From Thermoplasmatota archaeon (lineage in GTDB: Archaea; Thermoplasmatota; E2; DHVEG-1): a DNA stretch of 36,926 nt. The position numbers and the translations under genes are program-made. Shown here piece after piece: positions 1,206 to 35,042 of the stretch. Numbering within the stretch: position 1 is the first letter of the stretch; each line of letters begins with the position of its first letter. The DNA is taken from assembly GCA_030619765.1 (NCBI GenBank), contig JAUXAU010000028.1, forward strand, positions 1 through 36,926, read 5' to 3'. Below the pieces are notes generated by a model. The model ran no database searches and was not told the DNA's origin. It saw only the letters and a list, made by a program, of their open reading frames with translations.

Positions 1206-3296
1206 ATGAAGATAAAAATAATGACTGGAACCATCTTAATCGTGTTTATTATAGCAAATATTATACCGAGTATTAGTGGGATACAAGTGAAGGAAAATGA
1301 AAGATTTCCTTTGAGCTTCGATCCACCGGTCTATTCATCTACACCGGATTGGATCTCGGATAATCCGCATTACAGTACTGGGGCCGCGCTCGCTGATTTC
1401 AATCAAAACGGCTGGCTTGATCTGGTCGTTGCTGATGGTAATGATATGTCGCAAGGGCGGCTTAATGTCTATTATAACGACGGAAACGGCGCATTCCCTA
1501 CAACTGCTAGTTGGCAATCAGCTGATCTTGGATACAATGGTCATCTGGATGTCGCGGATGTAAACGGAGATGGATGGCCTGATGTCGCAGTCTCATATCT
1601 TGGTACATCCTCTACATTTGGACCTATCGCTCGTGTCTACTTGAATAATAACGGCGTTCTCTTCTCTTTACCTGATTGGTCTGCAGATATTATCGGCAAC
1701 GCATTTGGCGTTGACTTTGGCGATATAAACAACGACGGCCGCCCAGATTTGGCAGTGGCCACTGGATGGTCCTACAGTCCACAACACTTCTACAATAATT
1801 ACGTTTACCTTAATATTGGTGGCACGCTTGAATCATCGGCAAGTTGGGAATCAGATGACACCTACCATTTCATGGGTGTACTGTGGGTAGATGCTGATAA
1901 TGATAGCTGGTTGGACCTAGCTGGGATTGGTACAGGGCAGGAGACCAAGATATATCGTAATCTTGGTGGTATGCTTGAGACAACTGCAAGCTGGCAGACA
2001 TCAGACAGTTCTGGTCAAGACGGAATTATGCTGACTGTTGGCGATGTCAACATTGATGGAGTCCTTGATCTTTTTGCCGCTGATAACATGCAACTCGGTG
2101 GTAGCGGGCTTTTTAAACAATATAATGGTCTGTCTGAAGGATTCTTTGAAACTACCTACTCGTGGAGCTATAACGATGGCTACTGTTCGGCGGTCGCTCT
2201 TGCAGATGTCAATGGCGATTACAAACTTGACCTGGCTACTGGGGCATGGTGGGACTACACCCGTATTTTCATCAATGATGGATCAGAATTACCCGTGAGT
2301 CCGTCCTGGAACTCAGGAGGAACGAGCGTTGTTGAGAAGATCCTGTTTGGAAATGTCGGTCCGACACATTGTGAGCGTGTCCGTACCGAGCGTTTTTCCT
2401 CTGATGGTAATCGTAAGCTCTTTCATTTACCACATCAACCGATACAAGGAATTCGTAGTGTGGCTCGCGACGGTGTTGCGTTGAATCCCTCTGAATACAC
2501 ATCCAGCCGAGAACATGGCTGGATTACGGTCGGTACAGCTCCAACTGAATCGATTGAAGTAGTCTACAATTATTCTCGTTCGATTGATATGGTTGTTTCC
2601 AACTGGGATAACCATCTTGGCAACTATCTCTATTACAACCAATTGTTATACGCCGATTTAGATTGCGATGGTACCCTCAGTTGGACCAATGTTAAACCAG
2701 GAGAAACTGTTGAGGGTAGTTTTGAGGTGTCAAACATCGGCGATCCGTCCTCGTTGCTAAACTGGGAGATAGAATCATACCCTGATTGGGGAACCTGGAC
2801 ATTTGACCCTGAATCCGGTGAAGATTTGACACCTGAGGAGGGATCAGTTATTGTAAATGTTGAAGTTATTGCACCTGATGAGAGGGATACTGAATTCTTA
2901 GGAGAAATTAAGGTTGTAAACCAAGATGATCCATATGATTCCGATATCATTCCTGTATCTCTTAACCTTGAAGGTGGACCAGGACCAGCATTTGAAATCG
3001 TATCCATCACAGGTGGAATGGGGGTAAGCATAGAATTCGAGAACGTTGGAAATGGATCTGCAACTAATGTGGACTGGAACATCAAGGTAACCGGAGGAAT
3101 ACTCAATTTAATAAACGTCAACAAGGGAAGCATAATATCTAGTATGGCTCCTGGAGCGAAAGAAACGGTTAAAACGGGGATTTTCCTTGGTCTTGGTAAG
3201 ATAAGTATAGAGTTTACAGTAGACTGCGACGAGGGAGCATCTGTAAATGAGGGTGCAACTGGAACACAAATAATCATCTTCACTAAAATTAGTTAA
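1206..3296 (+). CDS. Secreted FG-GAP/VCBS beta-propeller protein
   Basis: This 696-residue protein has a signal peptide (about 1-25, ending IIPSISG) and six clear FG-GAP repeats with calcium-binding loops such as DVNGDGWPDV and DINNDGRPDL between about 55 and 360. A seventh blade is interrupted by a small beta-rich insert (about 380-460). Next comes a domain of about 105 residues beginning DCDGTLSW, closely matching one in the Asp-box protein at 32993. The last domain (about 595-696) is beta-rich with GGMGVSIEFENVGNGSA. FG-GAP propellers usually bind ligands or surfaces; the target here is unknown. The propeller DNA is clearly richer in G+C than its surroundings (33 of 60 bases at 1381-1440), suggesting a transferred or recombined segment. 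It lacks the C-terminal tail seen on two other secreted proteins here. Confidence 0.85.
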   Translation: MKIKIMTGTILIVFIIANIIPSISGIQVKENERFPLSFDPPVYSSTPDWISDNPHYSTGAALADFNQNGWLDLVVADGNDMSQGRLNVYYNDGNGAFPTTASWQSADLGYNGHLDVADVNGDGWPDVAVSYLGTSSTFGPIARVYLNNNGVLFSLPDWSADIIGNAFGVDFGDINNDGRPDLAVATGWSYSPQHFYNNYVYLNIGGTLESSASWESDDTYHFMGVLWVDADNDSWLDLAGIGTGQETKIYRNLGGMLETTASWQTSDSSGQDGIMLTVGDVNIDGVLDLFAADNMQLGGSGLFKQYNGLSEGFFETTYSWSYNDGYCSAVALADVNGDYKLDLATGAWWDYTRIFINDGSELPVSPSWNSGGTSVVEKILFGNVGPTHCERVRTERFSSDGNRKLFHLPHQPIQGIRSVARDGVALNPSEYTSSREHGWITVGTAPTESIEVVYNYSRSIDMVVSNWDNHLGNYLYYNQLLYADLDCDGTLSWTNVKPGETVEGSFEVSNIGDPSSLLNWEIESYPDWGTWTFDPESGEDLTPEEGSVIVNVEVIAPDERDTEFLGEIKVVNQDDPYDSDIIPVSLNLEGGPGPAFEIVSITGGMGVSIEFENVGNGSATNVDWNIKVTGGILNLINVNKGSIISSMAPGAKETVKTGIFLGLGKISIEFTVDCDEGASVNEGATGTQIIIFTKIS

Positions 3297-3384
3297 AAAA
3301 ACAAAATAGGCAGAATATTGTTCATAAAAACTTTTATTTACAGTTTTTAACAAATATAACGTATATTATCTAATAAAATAGCAG

Positions 3385-4191
3385 TTATCCCTCTAATTTG
3401 TATAGTTCAATATCGCCATTGGAAGTTTGAATAAAGATCTTATTACCACCCTCACCTAGTTTCCCTTCCATGTGTTTTTCTTCTGCTCTTGTTAAATTCA
3501 ATGATATGCCGCTTACAGAAATTTGACCATTGGATGTTGTCATTTCAATATCAGCGTTGAGAGAAGGATTTATGTATACGGTAATTCTTCCGTTACTCGA
3601 ACGTATATCGATATCATCTTTAAAGTCAAATATCTCCGCATAGATTCTTCCATTTGATGTCTCTAAATCGTCAATTCCGGTTGTACCTCGGATGTCTATT
3701 TCGCCGTTGCTTGTACTTGCTTTTACATAACCATCGACATCTTCAATAATGATCGCTCCATTGGAACTATGCGCCGAAGTATTTCCCTTTGTGCCTGAAA
3801 TTTGCACCGCTCCATTTGAAGTTGTTGCAGAGTCAACAGTAACATTTCGTGGTACCTTAATATTCATATCAACACTTGGCGTGGTTGTTCTCTGACCTAT
3901 ATATTTTGCTTCGATTTCTATTTGATTCTCGCTTTCGATAACATTGATTTCAACGTTGTCAAGTTCTTCTTGACCAAAGGAAGATTTTTTAACGGCATTA
4001 AAAGAGACATTGTCACCATCCCACGCAGCAATTTCAATCTGACCGTTAAGAGTAGTAACCTTCAAAACGGTATTTTCATTAGCCTCATATTCTCCATTGA
4101 AATAATCAGTTGTTTGAGGTCCAACACAGCCACTTAATCCAACAACAAGTAACATTAGCGCCATTCCAACAATCAAGAGTTGTTTTTTCAT
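3385..4191 (-). CDS. DUF4097-like beta-repeat lipoprotein
   Basis: The protein has 268 residues starting from MKKQLLIV. That start is chosen because AAGGAGGC lies 8 bases ahead; an upstream in-frame start would add 12 residues that overlap this ribosome site. A lipoprotein signal ends in LSGC with Cys at residue 22, so it should be lipid-anchored outside the cell. The rest is a right-handed-type beta repeat in which short strands carry recurring SNG motifs (TSNGAV, SSNGAI, TSNGEI, TSNGRI, SSNGRI, TSNGQI, TSNGDI), as in the DUF4097 putative adhesin family. Family function is poorly known, and a surface or envelope role is inferred. Confidence 0.8.
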   Translation of the reverse strand: MKKQLLIVGMALMLLVVGLSGCVGPQTTDYFNGEYEANENTVLKVTTLNGQIEIAAWDGDNVSFNAVKKSSFGQEELDNVEINVIESENQIEIEAKYIGQRTTTPSVDMNIKVPRNVTVDSATTSNGAVQISGTKGNTSAHSSNGAIIIEDVDGYVKASTSNGEIDIRGTTGIDDLETSNGRIYAEIFDFKDDIDIRSSNGRITVYINPSLNADIEMTTSNGQISVSGISLNLTRAEEKHMEGKLGEGGNKIFIQTSNGDIELYKLEG

Positions 4192-4264
4192 AAGATTTGC
4201 CTCCTTCAAATTACAGTTTAACAACATCTCTTGCTTAATAAATCTTTATTAAATTCTTGTTAAG

Positions 4265-4321
4265 TATAATGGTAGAAAGCCTATTGTATCATTGATATTT
4301 TCAGTTTGAAAGTTATCAAAA
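4265..4321 (+). repeat. Imperfect direct repeat, left copy
   Basis: TATAATGGTAGAAA at 4265-4278 recurs exactly at 5569-5582. A second block, GATATTTTCAGTTTGAA continuing to TTATCAAAA (4294-4321), recurs nearly intact at 5619-5645. The two copies bracket the cysteine-synthase-like gene. The spacer between the blocks is 15 bases here and 36 in the right copy. Confidence 0.6.
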
Positions 4322-4369
4322 GGTATATAAGGTGTATTATCACTTAAAAAGTATCAATTTCGATACTTT
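4321..4369 (+). promoter_or_regulatory. TATA box and palindromic operator of the cysteine-synthase-like gene
   Basis: GGTATATAAGG (4322-4332) is a good archaeal TATA element. Sixteen bases further on, AAAGTATC (4348-4355) and GATACTTT (4362-4369) form a perfect 8-bp inverted repeat with a 6-base spacer, placed on or just after the expected transcript start. This is a usual place for a repressor operator; an mRNA hairpin is the alternative. GGGGGA (4381-4386) is a possible ribosome site, somewhat far from the ATG at 4400. Confidence 0.5.
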
Positions 4370-4399
4370 GCAAAAATTATTGGGGGATATTTAGCGGTC

Positions 4400-5515
4400 A
4401 TGATATCAAATGATGTTTGCTCCAGAATTCGTAGTTTATCGAGTCTCATTGGCAACACACCACTTTTAGCTATCAAATATCTTTTCCATGGTGAGAAACG
4501 AGTTATTTATGCAAAAGCTGAACATCTAAATATGACCGGAAGCATCAAAGACAGAATGGCATTTCATATTTTACAACAAGGCTACAAAAGAGGGCATCTT
4601 AAAGCGGGGTATAAGATCATTGAAGCTACAAGTGGCAATACGGGCATCTCTTTTGCAGCAATTGGACGTGCTTTGGATCACCCGGTAGTTATTTTTATGC
4701 CTGATTGGCTAAGTGAAGAAAGGATAAATCTTATTCGGGGATTAGGAGCAAAAATTAATCTTGTAAGCAAAGAGGAAGGAGGATTTTTAGGGAGTATGCA
4801 ACAAGCCGAAGAGCTAGCAAAAAATACTAAAGCTTCATTTCTGCCTCGTCAATTCTCAAATGAAGATAATATAGAGGCTCACTATTTGACTACTGGTCCT
4901 GAAATTTGGTGGCAGTTACAGTTCCGAAATTTACGTCCTAATGCTTTTATTGCAGGTGTTGGTACAGGTGGAACAATAATGGGGGTTGGACGTTTTCTTA
5001 AAGAAAAGAATCCGGATATTAACTTGCATCCATTAGAACCTGCCAATTCTCCAACTCTATCAACAGGTCACAAGATAGGTAAACATCGTATTCAAGGCAT
5101 CTCTGATGAATTTATTCCATCGATTTTGAAGTTGGATAGATTAAATGAAATTATTAATGTCGATGATGGTGATGCAATCATAATGGCACAAAAGTTAGCA
5201 TCAGAGCTTGGAATCGGTGTTGGTATTTCTTCAGGTGCTAATTTCTTGGGTGCTATAAAGGTTCAAAATAGATTAGGTAGTGAAGCTGTGGTTGCTACAG
5301 TTTTACCAGACGATAATAAAAAATATTTAAGCACTGACCTATTGCATGAAGAACCAATCAAAAAAGGCTTCATATCAAAAGATGTCAAATTATTGCAGTA
5401 CAGAGCCTTCAAACGTGTTTGCCATACTTGTTGTGACCCAACAGAATGTATGGAAGCAGCACATCCAAAATTTGATGAAAAGTTTACATTACCTCATTGT
5501 CCAAGAAGAGAATAA
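4400..5515 (+). CDS. Cysteine synthase-like PLP enzyme with Cys-rich tail
   Basis: This 371-residue fold-type II PLP enzyme resembles O-acetylserine or O-phosphoserine sulfhydrylases. Visible motifs are IGNTPLL (17-23), the PLP lysine in TGSIKDRMA (Lys50), the substrate loop TSGNTG (77-82), and the phosphate-binding loop GVGTGGT near 190. These support a beta-replacement reaction making cysteine or a relative; cystathionine beta-synthase-type activity cannot be excluded. Beyond the catalytic core a short tail carries five Cys (341, 344, 345, 350, 367) in the pattern CxxCCx4C...HC, which looks like a metal or Fe-S site and is unusual for plain CysK. The gene stands alone, with its own promoter and operator-like palindrome, between direct repeats. 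Confidence 0.8.
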
Positions 5516-29163: not shown

Positions 29164-29229
29164 TTTTTAAATATTTTTCATTGTTTTTAGAATAAAAAGA
29201 AGAAAAGGAGAGGTGTTTTCAGTAAGAAC

Positions 29230-31593
29230 CTAGAGTCCAAGTAGGTTTCTGAGTATTGGAAAAGCCCTTGGAAATCGCTCTAAAAACCTTAGAAACAATG
29301 AGTTTACCAATATCTTGTTTCTTGGCATGGTTACTTCAAGTGTCCCCCAGTTACTCTCTTCATCAAATACATCTTTGGCTTTTGCTCTGACTACGTAGGT
29401 GTTCTTTTCATCCCAAGTGTGACTGAGGATAACTTCTTCACCAGAACCAAAATAGTCAGTCCACTCGGTATTGCCGTCATCCCAGTCTATAAAGTATTTG
29501 ACATTGTCCTCATTTGGATCAGTTGTCACGAAAGTGTATTCATATGCCGTTCCTATGTTCCCATTGGTTGTACCGGTTATATTTGGAGTATTTGGTGGAT
29601 CATTTTCAATAATGCTGACTTTCATATCTTCAAGCGTACTGAAATCTCCCCAGCCATGTTCAGCGTTATAACCTTTTACTTGATAATAGTAAGTTCCCTC
29701 AGGCTTGTCATTCACCTCATAATAGGGATCTATGATAGTGTTTGAAAGGGTTGTTATTGAAGCGAAATCGGCTAAGGGTGAAATATCATCAACATAGAAT
29801 CCTTCCTCTTGGGTATTTTGATCAGTCGTATATCGGAAACGTATGAAGACAGATTCGCCAACATAGTCATCTAAAGCATATTCCTCATAGGACCATCCGT
29901 CTGATGAACCCGTGAAGGTATCAAGTATTTCGTAGTATCTTCCATCTCGACTTACTTCAACGATGGCGTAGTCCCATTCTAATTCGATATTGTACCAGCA
30001 CCAGAATGATAATTTCATTCCAGATGTAACTGGTAATGGAGTAACTGTAGTCATAGATGAAACATCCTCGTGATTATGGCGGGATTTGTAACTATGACTA
30101 GACGAATGGGACCTTGATGTCGAAAGTGAGAATCCATCGAGTGTCCATGAATCTGAACCAGATTCAGCGTCATCAGTAACAAGGGATAGGTTAGTCATCT
30201 CATCAAGCTGAAAGTAATCTGGTTCTGCATCAGGATTTTGTTCCTCCCAAGAGACCGTATAGTTCCCATCTGGATCTGTAGTCATTTCATCGATAACAGG
30301 AGGTATCACTCTTGGTACTACTGTGTCTTGGATATTTTCAGCTTCTTCAAGGAGATATAATGCACCATCAAAGTTTTCAGCACAAATCTGATCAAGATAA
30401 CTCGCGGATGGATGGTATGAAGAACATGCCTCAATGGTATATGCAAAGGTTGTTCGCCCCTGGATATAATGACTATATCCATATGCCCAGTCTGTTGTAT
30501 CTCCTGTGGTGCCATATAGGGTGCAACTTTGTTGGGGTGTATATGTTCCTGATCCGCTTTGGCGTGTTATTCGCGAAGCAATCTGCTGTCCAACTTGAGA
30601 CATATAAGTAACATCAGGGGCAGAGCTTGGAGTGTAACCCCACGGCCATAGGACAAGCTGACCATGGGTATGCCACGTAATGGTGGCACATATGTTATTC
30701 TGAAGAAATACATCACGTATCGCTTGTGTTTCAAGCTCAGACTCAGGTCTAGGGCCACAATAGGTGCTGTAATCAGAGTTATGAGTCACAGAACCCGGAC
30801 CAATCGATCCCCAAGCTCCCCAGGGGTCTCCATTGCTTGAGCCACCATAATTCCGGTTATTATCAACACCATACGTACCAAACTCCGGGAAATAATTCCG
30901 GTTCTTCCGCCAGTCATTACCCAGATCATGGCAATAGTAGTAACCATCAGGATTAACACAAGTAACAAGCCATAAACGCCGGTTGTTTACGACATCGGTA
31001 ATACCAGGGTCCGACCCATATTTTGATGTGAGCTCATCTGCAATATGGAGGCAAATCTCAACCGTTGGCCATTCGCGAGCATGGTGTAGTCCCATAAAAA
31101 AAACGCCTGGCTCTCCTTCATCAACGCCTGGATTATCAGTAATTTCTAAACACCAAATGTCACGCCCTTCATAAGTTGTTCCGATACTGTAAAGACTAGT
31201 GATACTAGGATAAGTGCTTGCAATATTACTGAGAATACTCTCAATCTCAGCAAGTGTATGATACTGGCCTGCAACACTTTGGCTATAAGCAGCTACATCC
31301 CAAATGAGAACAGAATAATTAATATTTGAGTTTGCAAGTTCATTGAGTCTGACCCGAGGAATAATAATATCAATCCATTCACCTGGTCTGCCTCCTACCA
31401 CCTCCACACCTCGCGGAATTAAGGCAGGTCCTTCTGTTGTATCGATTCTTACTAAAACATTAGTGAAAAACGGGTTGTAACTGAATTCATCTATAATTGT
31501 TGATTCAGATGGTTGTTTCTCGCTCCCAGTTGCTGATATAGATGTAGTTATCAACAACGCAAAAACCAAAATGCAAATTAGTTTGCTTTTCAT
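29230..31593 (-). CDS. Secreted M14 zinc carboxypeptidase with C-terminal tail signal
   Basis: The protein has 787 residues with a signal peptide (about 1-22). The M14 domain (about 105-420) has zinc ligands in GLHHAREWPTVE (His171, Glu174), a third His in TWHTHGQ, and the catalytic Glu in FAYTIEAC. Downstream are an Ig/Fn3-like part, a jelly-roll domain (ESGSDSWTLDGFSL to FYVDDISPLADF) and a PKD-like domain (DWDDGNTEW). The protein ends PRNK, four variable residues, then SLFLRFLERFPRAFPILR and NLLGL. That tail closely resembles the end of the Asp-box protein at 32993 and is likely a sorting or anchoring signal. It removes C-terminal amino acids from external peptides. Confidence 0.9.
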   Translation of the reverse strand: MKSKLICILVFALLITTSISATGSEKQPSESTIIDEFSYNPFFTNVLVRIDTTEGPALIPRGVEVVGGRPGEWIDIIIPRVRLNELANSNINYSVLIWDVAAYSQSVAGQYHTLAEIESILSNIASTYPSITSLYSIGTTYEGRDIWCLEITDNPGVDEGEPGVFFMGLHHAREWPTVEICLHIADELTSKYGSDPGITDVVNNRRLWLVTCVNPDGYYYCHDLGNDWRKNRNYFPEFGTYGVDNNRNYGGSSNGDPWGAWGSIGPGSVTHNSDYSTYCGPRPESELETQAIRDVFLQNNICATITWHTHGQLVLWPWGYTPSSAPDVTYMSQVGQQIASRITRQSGSGTYTPQQSCTLYGTTGDTTDWAYGYSHYIQGRTTFAYTIEACSSYHPSASYLDQICAENFDGALYLLEEAENIQDTVVPRVIPPVIDEMTTDPDGNYTVSWEEQNPDAEPDYFQLDEMTNLSLVTDDAESGSDSWTLDGFSLSTSRSHSSSHSYKSRHNHEDVSSMTTVTPLPVTSGMKLSFWCWYNIELEWDYAIVEVSRDGRYYEILDTFTGSSDGWSYEEYALDDYVGESVFIRFRYTTDQNTQEEGFYVDDISPLADFASITTLSNTIIDPYYEVNDKPEGTYYYQVKGYNAEHGWGDFSTLEDMKVSIIENDPPNTPNITGTTNGNIGTAYEYTFVTTDPNEDNVKYFIDWDDGNTEWTDYFGSGEEVILSHTWDEKNTYVVRAKAKDVFDEESNWGTLEVTMPRNKILVNSLFLRFLERFPRAFPILRNLLGL

Positions 31594-31606
31594 ATTTATC
31601 ATCTCA

Positions 31607-31632
31607 CAACATTTTTATTATACTAAATGTTG
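31607..31632 (-). promoter_or_regulatory. Palindrome next to the TATA box of the M14 gene
   Basis: CAACATTT (31607-31614) and AAATGTTG (31625-31632) form a perfect 8-bp inverted repeat with a 10-base spacer. On the minus strand it directly follows GTATATATATAC, a TATA-like run (31632-31643), and precedes the ribosome site. It lies over the expected transcript start, so an operator or a leader hairpin is likely. Confidence 0.45.
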
Positions 31633-31881
31633 TATATATATACTCCATCGTAATAAAGATTTCTCTAATTTAGGAATATCCTCCGATCTGTAAGCTTGGA
31701 TCGCCTAGAAGAACAAATTCCTCAACAGTTTTACAGTCTAAGAGGGTTGCTGACGAATCATTATCCTCTCAATTATTAATCTGAAAGATAGCTATTAATA
31801 TTTGCTGTTTTGTATCTCCAATAAATAAAATTGATGAGACGCGAGTGTTTTATCCTAAGGGATTATCAATGTGGTACGTTT

Positions 31882-32745
31882 TTATATGCGATTTGTAGAT
31901 TTCAGCTCTCCATGAATATCGCCGTTTGGCATAGTGGCATCGATCTTGACGAGGTTTCCAACAGATGGTGCATAATGATATTCAAAGAAACCACCAATTA
32001 TCGATGAGATCTTCCATGCATCAAAGGGCCCCGCTTCAACAGTAATACTTTCTTTACTCCAGCACCAAAACGCAAGGGGCGTCCATGAATAATGGGTTTG
32101 AAATGATACAGGTATCTTGATAAGCCCAAAGATTCCGCCCATTTGTGCATTCATTTCTACATCGATATCTGGTAGTGCCCAGGTTTTCAGTGTACTTAAT
32201 GGAAAATCGAAGATAGGAAAAACAGTACTCAAATCACCATTTAGGGTCAATTTAAACGGAATTGGAAGTGGTATAGGGATTGGGGAGATTTTTGCCATGG
32301 TGATGCCTTTTATTTCAGCAAAAACATCTTCAATTTCTAAATCAGATTTGGTAAAAGTAATGGTTCCTGTAATACGAGTTAATGCAGGTTTAAATGTGCC
32401 TGTAACCCATAATGTCATTGATGATGAAGAAAGATAAATTTCATATTCTGCAGTGAGTTTACCTGTAAAATCTACCTCATAAGTACTCCCGCTCGTGTCA
32501 GCAACAGTCCATTCAAAATCATCTATTTTTCCATCCATAAACATCTTTTGGCCACTTACATCGTAATCTACGGTAAAATTATTTATTGTGTATGTCCAAC
32601 TATCACCAACACTCCAAATAGGAACATCGTCATCAAAAGTAGTAGTTCCTTTCGATATCTGTTTAATCTTAATGGGTTCAGCTACAGTTGCAACACTCAA
32701 CATCATTAGCATACAAATCATAATTCCTAGGATTTTAATCTTCAT
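31882..32745 (-). CDS. Secreted protein, unknown family
   Basis: The protein has 287 residues with a signal peptide (about 1-22, ending SVATVAEP). The mature part is beta-rich: VGDSWTYTINNFTVDYDV opens it, repeated antiparallel-type strands follow, and then a Pro-rich turn ISPIPIPLPIPF. The end is FEYHYAPSVGNLVKIDATMPNGDIHGEL. W-x-VGDSWTY-type openings occur in secreted archaeal proteins of unknown function; nothing catalytic is seen. GGTGTAAAAAT before the ATG gives a ribosome site. It lies between two other exported proteins, and a surface role is inferred from that and from the signal peptide. Confidence 0.7.
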   Translation of the reverse strand: MKIKILGIMICMLMMLSVATVAEPIKIKQISKGTTTFDDDVPIWSVGDSWTYTINNFTVDYDVSGQKMFMDGKIDDFEWTVADTSGSTYEVDFTGKLTAEYEIYLSSSSMTLWVTGTFKPALTRITGTITFTKSDLEIEDVFAEIKGITMAKISPIPIPLPIPFKLTLNGDLSTVFPIFDFPLSTLKTWALPDIDVEMNAQMGGIFGLIKIPVSFQTHYSWTPLAFWCWSKESITVEAGPFDAWKISSIIGGFFEYHYAPSVGNLVKIDATMPNGDIHGELKSTNRI

Positions 32746-32992
32746 ATTTTTACACCATATATTGTTAATTATAAAAATGTCTATTTAAATCTATCGAATG
32801 AATGATATATAGTGAAACGATCGTGATTGAACTTTTATTTCATAAGAGAAGAATAGGGTCATAGTAAATGTTGTAGAAATGAAGTCAGTATAATGGCGTG
32901 ACAAATGTTTCAATAGACGTATTTAAAAGGAAATGTTTAAATAAAATTAGTGTATTGTAATTTATAGATTTATATTTTGGGAGGATAAAAAT

Positions 32993-34909
32993 ATGAAAAA
33001 GAAAATAGTAGTTATGATAGTTATAATAATACTATTATTTGGAGCTAGTGTCGTACCAAGCATAAGTGGAAATACTGAAAAAGTGAGTAAAGATAAAGAA
33101 GTGGCTATCCAGAAGCAGGCGGCAGGACAGAAGGGCACAGATGTTCAAATTGATCCTGATCCAACAAATGTATTACAGAATGAAATATCATTAGATCTTA
33201 TTCCAGGTTCATCAGGTTCACCAACTTTACTGGTTGCTGCTTATAATGATGATCCATATGCTGGTGGTCCAGGTCTTGGTGTGAGTTACAGTACAGATGC
33301 TGGAATGACTTGGACTGCAACTCAACTTCAGTATCCATTGAATACTATTACTGGTTTGCTTATGGATGATATGTTTGATCCTACTGTTACGATTGATACC
33401 CTAGGAAATGTATTTGTTGGACAAATATCTTCAGATATAAATTGGTACAGCGGTATGTATGTTCATAAGTCAACTAACGGAGGTGTAACTTGGCTTCCAC
33501 CAGTGACTATTGCCCTAGATATTCCACCTCAATCTAATCCAGATCCAAACTTCCGATTTAATGATAGATGTCAGATAAAAGCTGATACATATACGTCTAG
33601 TCCATATACTGATAATATTTATGTTACATGGATAAAAGACCGTGGATATAATATGCCACTACCAACTGGCGATATATACTTTTCATACTCGACTGATAGT
33701 GGTAATACCTTCAGTGCACCTATAACTATAAACTCATTTGCTAATGATCTTGCAAATATGCCAAATCCAGCAGTAGCTTCTGATGGAACTGTATATGTTT
33801 CATGGCTGCATTATAATGTATGGACGGGAGGGATTGGCACTATATTTCTAGATGTATCCACCGATGGTGGTGTAACGTGGGGACCAGATATTACTGTTGC
33901 TACAATAAATCTGCCACCATTATCTCTAACCACAGGTACTGGTCAACCCGATGTCGTATCTAAAGGAGCTCCTGTTTTAGAAGTTTCACCAAATAATCCA
34001 AATGAGCTTTATATTACATATGCAGCTGATCCAGATGGAGCTGGACCTGATGAATGTGATATCTTCTTTATTCGATCTACAAATGGAGGAGGTGCCTGGA
34101 GTGCACCTATTCGAGTAAATGATGATACAACAACAAATGATCAGCACCTTCCATGGATGGATGTTAAGCCAGATGGGACAATTGACATTGTATGGTATGA
34201 CCGTAGAAATGATGCAAGCGATAAACTCTGGGATGTATATATTGCAAAAAGCGTTGATGGAGGAATTACCTTTTCAACTAATTATCAAATTAATGACCAA
34301 AATTTTGCATCACCAACAAATCCATGGGGAACACCCTGGATGGGAGAATACCTAGGTCTTGCATGTGATAGTGGTTGGGCTCATATTGTATTTACATCAT
34401 CAATTACAGATGGTTTAGGGGATGTATATTATGATAATATGGATAACGACGACATGGTAGTTCCACAAGCTGCAATAGGCTGCGATGGTTCACTAGTATG
34501 GACTGGAATTAAACCAGGGGCAACAGTAACTGATAGTTTTAACGTGTCAAACATTGGCGACCCAGGTTCGGAGCTTAATTGGAATATCACAGAATGGCCA
34601 AATTGGGGAACATGGACGTTTAATCCTTCAAGTGGCAATGCCTTAAAACCTGAAGACGGGGCTGTTACTGTACAGGTAACTGTCGTTGCACCTCAAGGGG
34701 TACCTAGAGTTATACCACAACCACGAGATACTACGTATACCGGGCAGGTAAAAATAGTCAATTTAGATGATCCTAGTGATTTCTGCACCATTGATGTATC
34801 TCTTACAACACCAAAAAACAAAGCATTCAACATAAACCTGTTATTCCTAGGATTCCTACAGCAACACCCACATATGTTCCCAATACTAAGGTACATGCTG
34901 GGACTATAA
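32993..34909 (+). CDS. Secreted Asp-box (BNR) propeller protein with C-terminal tail signal
   Basis: The protein has 638 residues. The signal peptide ends VVPSISG, like that of the FG-GAP protein. About six Asp-box repeats follow (STDAGMTW, STNGGVTW, STDSGNTF, STDGGVTW, STNGGGAW, SVDGGITF), the sialidase-type propeller hallmark. Sialidase catalytic residues were not confirmed, so an enzyme is not claimed. A domain of about 110 residues from GCDGSLVW matches one in the FG-GAP protein, and the end is PKNK, then LLFLGFLQQHPHMFPILR and YMLGL. GGGAGG before the ATG is a strong ribosome site. Confidence 0.85.
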   Translation: MKKKIVVMIVIIILLFGASVVPSISGNTEKVSKDKEVAIQKQAAGQKGTDVQIDPDPTNVLQNEISLDLIPGSSGSPTLLVAAYNDDPYAGGPGLGVSYSTDAGMTWTATQLQYPLNTITGLLMDDMFDPTVTIDTLGNVFVGQISSDINWYSGMYVHKSTNGGVTWLPPVTIALDIPPQSNPDPNFRFNDRCQIKADTYTSSPYTDNIYVTWIKDRGYNMPLPTGDIYFSYSTDSGNTFSAPITINSFANDLANMPNPAVASDGTVYVSWLHYNVWTGGIGTIFLDVSTDGGVTWGPDITVATINLPPLSLTTGTGQPDVVSKGAPVLEVSPNNPNELYITYAADPDGAGPDECDIFFIRSTNGGGAWSAPIRVNDDTTTNDQHLPWMDVKPDGTIDIVWYDRRNDASDKLWDVYIAKSVDGGITFSTNYQINDQNFASPTNPWGTPWMGEYLGLACDSGWAHIVFTSSITDGLGDVYYDNMDNDDMVVPQAAIGCDGSLVWTGIKPGATVTDSFNVSNIGDPGSELNWNITEWPNWGTWTFNPSSGNALKPEDGAVTVQVTVVAPQGVPRVIPQPRDTTYTGQVKIVNLDDPSDFCTIDVSLTTPKNKAFNINLLFLGFLQQHPHMFPILRYMLGL

Positions 34910-34926
34910 ACCTACACTAAAACCAC

Positions 34927-34941
34927 TCTTTTTTCTTTTTC
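34927..34941 (+). terminator. T-rich stretch after the Asp-box gene
   Basis: CTTTTTTCTTTTTCC begins about 18 bases after the stop and matches the U-rich signals that end archaeal transcripts. Confidence 0.45.
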
Positions 34942-35042
34942 CAAATTAACAAAGATATTTTGAGTTTTGGATAGAAACATCTTGCAATAAATCAAACCAA
35001 TAGCTTTTAAGAGAGAGGAAGATTCGGGCTTTGTGAATAATT

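Follow-up and report, generated by a model that had tools for sequence, protein, structure and literature searches.

Why do two unrelated secreted proteins of one archaeon end almost alike? The question arises in a 36,926-nucleotide stretch of contig JAUXAU010000028.1 (assembly GCA_030619765.1, a Thermoplasmatota archaeon), called the window here, by which we mean that whole stretch. An earlier note on this DNA had seen that two of its genes differ in domains and share a C-terminal tail, and had taken the tail for a sorting signal. The first gene encodes a secreted M14 zinc carboxypeptidase of 790 residues (29230..31602, minus strand; PF00246, E=2.5e-63; PF20773, E=1.2e-17); most members of the window's family encode an orthologue. 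The second encodes a secreted Asp-box/BNR protein of 638 residues (32993..34909, plus strand; PF13088, E=9e-9). Upstream of the tails Pfam shows unrelated domains: M14 and an InhA-like MAM domain in one protein, BNR/Asp-box in the other. Translation of the open reading frames (ORFs), tail alignment and profile matches place the M14 tail, PRNKILVNSLFLRFLERFPRAFPILRNLLGL, at 29233..29325 (minus strand) and the Asp-box tail, PKNKAFNINLLFLGFLQQHPHMFPILRYMLGL, at 34811..34906 (plus strand), each running to the stop codon. A pairwise alignment of the tails, about 34 columns long, has 19 identical positions. By a heuristic hydropathy test both proteins begin like signal peptides (MKSKLICILVFALLITTSISA, 31531..31602, minus strand; MKKKIVVMIVIIILLFGASVVPSISG, 32993..33070, plus strand). 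The observation of the tail is correct and was understated, and the similarity is far beyond chance. The tail belongs to a recurrent, essentially terminal class whose carriers are exported proteins with unrelated domains.

A profile search of Thermoplasmatota, proposed together with the original observation, found the tail many times over. A profile built from the two tails matched 45 places in the window's genome at E<1e-4, and almost every match runs to a stop codon. With a 27-row profile there were 48 matches in the window's genome and 79 in a sister genome, G004 (E<=0.001). In a sample of 390 genomes of the phylum, the window's family accounts for 45, of which 38 have the tail; among the 345 others it occurs in 2, G202 and G234, which hold one or two diverged copies each. 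The family includes SM1-50 (G015). Because SM1-50 and SG8-52-3 are classed as Thermoprofundales (MBG-D) (PMC6461988), we take the family to be that lineage. The best 78 loci from the genomes of 84,980 species lie in Thermoplasmatota metagenome-assembled genomes (MAGs) only, save for L124, from an archaeon, and L087; weaker matches may lie elsewhere. L087 (2868-2966) is in the Heimdallarchaeota MAG HM4_B41, on a 3.2 kb contig with a coverage of 0.8, and the tail-bearing end of this contig matches MBG-D DNA. Given that coverage and that contig end, L087 is probably a mis-binned contig and was rejected as a true Heimdallarchaeota copy.

The tail is about 32 residues long in the tailed proteins of the family. 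It opens with [TS]xPxN[KQ] and a variable stretch of 3-8 residues, and closes with the pattern [FL]Lx[FW]L[EQ]x[FH]Pxx followed by FP[IV][LI]Rx[LM]L[GE]L. Of the 83 tails whose last residue is directly followed by the stop codon, all have P-13, F-10, P-9 and L-1 (counted back from that codon), 79 have R-6 and 81 have E/Q-16. Three sub-types recur (PMNQQ..WWFLQFLQNHPRMFPILR; PKNKAFNINLLFLRFLENHPHMFPILR; PKNKPFNFNFNLLSWLFERFPNAFPILR), and within the same genome these linkers also precede more divergent relatives, FLERLIQRFPVLEMIFSHLLG for example. The earlier note had called the tail strictly terminal. This stands insofar as nearly all copies end at the stop codon: 124 of 151 matched ORFs stop no more than 3 residues past the profile match, and most others no more than 17. 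It does not stand to the letter, as about a quarter of the matches carry 1-3 extra residues and some variants 4-17, and a few copies are internal. Such internal copies are rare, with two clear cases among the 151 (L081 and L121, followed by 160 and 206 residues) and one weak tandem, at residues 446-483 of a secreted protein (LLNHPHLFPILRYLLGLYPHLFPMFRYIFEL; L041:3916-6174, minus strand).

That the tail sits on secreted proteins was borne out well beyond the window. Among 131 full-length tailed ORFs from the window's genome and about 20 related genomes, 125 have a signal-peptide-like start, against 221 of 552 untailed neighbours (40%; p ~7e-35), as called by a hydropathy rule rather than SignalP and on loci picked for bearing tails. 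The six others are mostly fragments or mis-started ORFs. The tail is thus almost never found on a protein without a signal peptide, as a motif of cytoplasmic proteins would be. In a Pfam search of 89 tailed proteins, PKD was the commonest domain. Peptidases of families C25, C1, S8, M14 and M28 are among them, as are PQQ and other propellers, DUF7901, NosD/beta-helix, arylsulfotransferase and FG-GAP proteins.

A shared globular domain had been considered as a source of the likeness. We ran AlphaFold2 on both C-termini, with alignments built from our own tailed loci. The M14 model (135 residues) has a confident beta-sandwich, a low-confidence linker and helices at residues 113-121 and 126-132. 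The Asp-box model (133 residues) has the same order, with helices at 111-119 and 121-130. Directly before the M14 tail the sandwich is PKD-like (approximately 29326..29586, minus strand; high pLDDT); before the Asp-box tail it is Ig-like (34508..34810, plus strand, by model and alignment), unlike the PKD-type domain. The tail is therefore predicted to be a two-helix hairpin that lies outside the preceding domain, after a loose linker. Since it follows at least two types of beta-sandwich and is modelled as a separate hairpin, it is no part of a shared globular domain.

No named family accounts for the tail, as the earlier note had supposed. Searches with 27 representative tails gave no match in NCBIfam (CTERM models included), Pfam or PDB sequences; neither GlyGly-CTERM (NCBIfam) nor the type IX secretion C-terminal domain (CTD; Pfam and NCBIfam) was matched. 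In the literature we found no report of an FPILR motif in archaea, nor of an MBG-D C-terminal cell-surface anchor, and a wider search brought up nothing relevant. The stated difference from PEF-CTERM and PGF-CTERM tags also holds. None of the 27 tails has a PGF or PEF motif, the mean hydropathy is 0.55 (best 12-mer mean, 0.96), the chain ends in LGL, and there is neither a transmembrane (TM) span nor a basic end. The archaeosortase system is nonetheless resident. Archaeosortase A (ArtA), found first by Pfam and then by a clade profile, scores above the TIGR04125 cut-off in 38 of 45 family genomes, with Cys194, Arg236 and His256 invariant; in the window's genome it lies at G000:C103:6601-7536. 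The Heimdall-CTERM model NF045529 detects PGF-CTERM-like tails, complete with hydrophobic span and basic end, in 45 of 45 family genomes; the window's genome has 15 such tails. Genomes without the new tail (G016, G021, G022, G052, G137 and G248) also have both ArtA and PGF-type tails. The new tail is a second C-terminal class, separate from the coexisting ArtA/PGF-CTERM system.

The tail class proposed in the earlier note is thus real, but the anchoring or export system that was to read it is still a conjecture, as no gene that tracks the tail was found among its neighbourhoods, ArtA, sortase or rhomboid. ArtA was rejected as a dedicated reader because it occurs with or without the tail and has PGF-CTERM substrates of its own. 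Sortase (PF04203) is absent from all 25 genomes searched, while three Gram-positive control genomes match, and was rejected. Rhomboid was set aside because a single copy is present in 23 of 25 genomes, whether or not these have the tail. The rhomboid of the window's tail-rich genus (G000:C92:7803-8273, and those of G001, G002 and G004) has diverged, scoring about 91-94 bits against 104-118 in the rest of the family. Among neighbouring genes, only a cluster of UbiA-like prenyltransferases recurs; it stands beside one tailed gene in four genomes and was judged to be synteny. These tandem genes, assigned by eye from motifs, are at L118:291-6204, L054:2-4117, L120:38-3223 and L141:6429-9071.

What, then, might the tail do? 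The cargo is exported and unrelated, the linker flexible, the hairpin fixed in sequence and without a TM span, a few copies are internal, and in relatives the tail has degenerated into one that is no more than hydrophobic and cationic. Taken together, these features fit best with a modular, non-cleaved docking or retention signal that keeps exported proteins at the cell surface, a reading to which we give an even chance. The tailed proteins would leave the cell by the N-terminal signal peptide. The last ~32 residues would hang from the final beta-sandwich by the loose linker (PxN[KQ] plus 3-8 residues), and their end would fold into the short two-helix hairpin. Its hydrophobic face, with the fixed Pro, Phe, Arg and C-terminal Leu, would bind a cell-surface partner, most likely a receptor or a surface-layer or scaffold protein, possibly together with the membrane. 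Peptidases and binding proteins would be held at the surface with the tail in place and no archaeosortase involved. Several points weigh against docking. No receptor gene was identified among neighbouring genes or from the presence of the protein families searched for. Orthologues exist whose motif-poor, hydrophobic, cationic tails are better suited to direct membrane binding. Shared DNA, terminator included, accounts for part of the sequence uniformity, and the tail helices are modelled with modest confidence (pLDDT ~60-75). These archaea are uncultured, and export is predicted from sequence; surface retention, a protein receptor and the lack of cleavage are what we infer.

The tail could instead do without a protein receptor and anchor proteins directly, as a cationic amphipathic hairpin lying in the outer leaflet of the cytoplasmic membrane. 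We regard this as possible, if on balance doubtful. The hydrophobic moment of the tails is 0.44 against 0.28-0.33 in controls, and their net charge is +1.25. The M14 orthologues also bear on it. Those of the same genus have the same tail, and others end in a different beta domain. A further 14, from other genera of which some were scored tail-negative, carry after the same PKD domain a tail with little of the motif, yet with similar hydrophobicity (0.77 vs 0.85 in the new tail) and moment (0.42 vs 0.44) and a charge of +2.0. A membrane tether explains these motif-poor tails better than docking does, and the fixed residues worse. P-13, F-10, P-9, R-6 and L-1, invariant over dozens of paralogues, amount to more specificity than lipid binding alone needs. 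A HeliQuest-style discriminant, computed with standard weights, exceeds 1.34 in 20% of soluble C-termini but in only 10% of the tails, which also speaks against the membrane.

It is unlikely that a dedicated enzyme, a transpeptidase or protease and possibly the resident ArtA, cleaves the tail off near PxN[KQ]. The terminal position and a PxN[KQ] conserved ahead of a hydrophobic stretch are what such a sorting signal would have, and ArtA is encoded in most family genomes, the window's included. The PGF-type substrates of ArtA are, however, in every family genome, some genomes without the tail have ArtA, sortase is missing, and the tail lacks the TM span and basic end. Internal copies with long sequences after them make an obligatory cleavage signal less likely, as do the orthologues whose tails are still hydrophobic and cationic although the motif is gone.

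We think it improbable that the tail works on the protein that carries it or on other tailed proteins, as a cap, a folding aid or a means of self-association into multi-enzyme assemblies. Hydrophobic hairpins are able to self-associate and many different enzymes share this one, but in the monomer models it lies outside the preceding domain on a flexible linker, after two unrelated types of beta-sandwich.

The history of the tail can be read in part from its DNA. Orthologues with alike bodies can differ in their tails, which suggests tail exchange: L094 of bin45 and the Asp-box protein of the window are 92% alike in the body and about 17/24 alike in the tail, and the orthologues L082 and L086 have different sub-types. 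Identical tail residues use identical codons in 55% of cases, against 36% expected. The likeness between tailed genes continues past the stop codon into an A/C-rich motif and a pyrimidine tract, the latter following 77% of tailed genes and 7-27% of other genes. Both genes of the window have this flank. The M14 gene is followed by an A/C-rich stretch and then a pyrimidine tract, a probable terminator (29191..29229, minus strand), and the Asp-box gene by ACCTACACTAAAACC, common to other tailed genes, and then a pyrimidine tract (34910..34942, plus strand). Given the shared DNA beyond the stop codon and the codon likeness, what travels is a 3' gene-end module that includes the tail, so the copy number of the tail overstates independent origins. 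In two loci with PMNQQ-type tails (L052 and L060), a near-perfect hairpin, CTAAGTATG-TGGTC-CATACTTAG, lies directly 3' of the stop codon. That the likeness is mainly a by-product of this spreading module (tail codons, stop and terminator), with slight function for the peptide, is already disfavoured and very improbable, as the tail is found almost only on exported proteins and is under purifying selection, with nonsynonymous (dN) and synonymous (dS) divergence of 0.107 and 0.69 (dN/dS ~0.16) against 0.140 and 0.62 (~0.23) in the body, over 24 orthologue pairs that overlap and are not independent.

Other C-terminal ends are shared in this lineage. Secreted proteins ending in (L)FGLGKxxITVTV...GxxLLFFIxx, possibly a third C-terminal module, are encoded in the window (1206-3296, plus strand) and at L034:4906-7509, L084:1276-2976 and 3152-4438, L190, L192, L194 and L195. 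This end replaces the hairpin tail in the M14 orthologues of one genus. Some untailed secreted proteins, including M14 orthologues of other genera, have at their end an Ig-like domain whose last residues are VWKFF or similar (L059:3296-5926, L053:4370-6247, L148:2873-4312, L202 and L204); one such M14 orthologue comes from the tail-negative genome G052. Another common terminus is NYWNRPRLLPKPIFG...FDWHPAQEPYDI, on secreted proteins at L042:3883-4881, L126:6156-7352, L082:3486-4376, L135:6168-7247 and L113:1436-2380.

Whether peptidases are released or retained by the cell decides who gains from the digestion. Few sediment archaea are as widespread as MBG-D (Thermoprofundales), which are believed to live off protein by means of secreted peptidases (PMC6461988). 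With dozens of exported proteins bearing it in each genome, C25, C1, S8, M14 and M28 peptidases among them, the tail makes this question testable. It is also a sequence handle for finding the binding partner and for predicting the surface proteome of an uncultured lineage. More tentatively, a surface receptor or scaffold of MBG-D may gather dozens of secreted peptidases and binding proteins through their hairpin tails, independently of archaeosortase. Such an arrangement would be functionally akin to the cellulosome, but for protein degradation.

Among known systems, PGF-CTERM/ArtA is similar in that its tails are C-terminal on many exported archaeal proteins. PGF-CTERM tails, however, have the PGF motif, a TM span, a basic end and cleavage by ArtA, and the new tail has none of these features. 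The type IX CTD likewise stands at the C-terminus of many secreted peptidases, C25 among them, that begin with a Sec signal peptide. The type IX signal is an Ig-like beta domain of Bacteroidota, whereas the new tail is a predicted helical hairpin of 32 residues and archaeal. Like the dockerin of the cellulosome, the tail is a short helical module common to unrelated secreted enzymes and would serve for docking. Dockerins have about 60-70 residues with calcium-binding repeats; no similarity of the tail to them was found in Pfam, and we know of no cohesin-like receptor for it. Amphipathic-helix membrane tethers are also hydrophobic, mildly cationic helices at the chain end. Such tethers are usually tolerant of sequence change, whereas in the new tail individual Pro, Phe and Arg positions are fixed.

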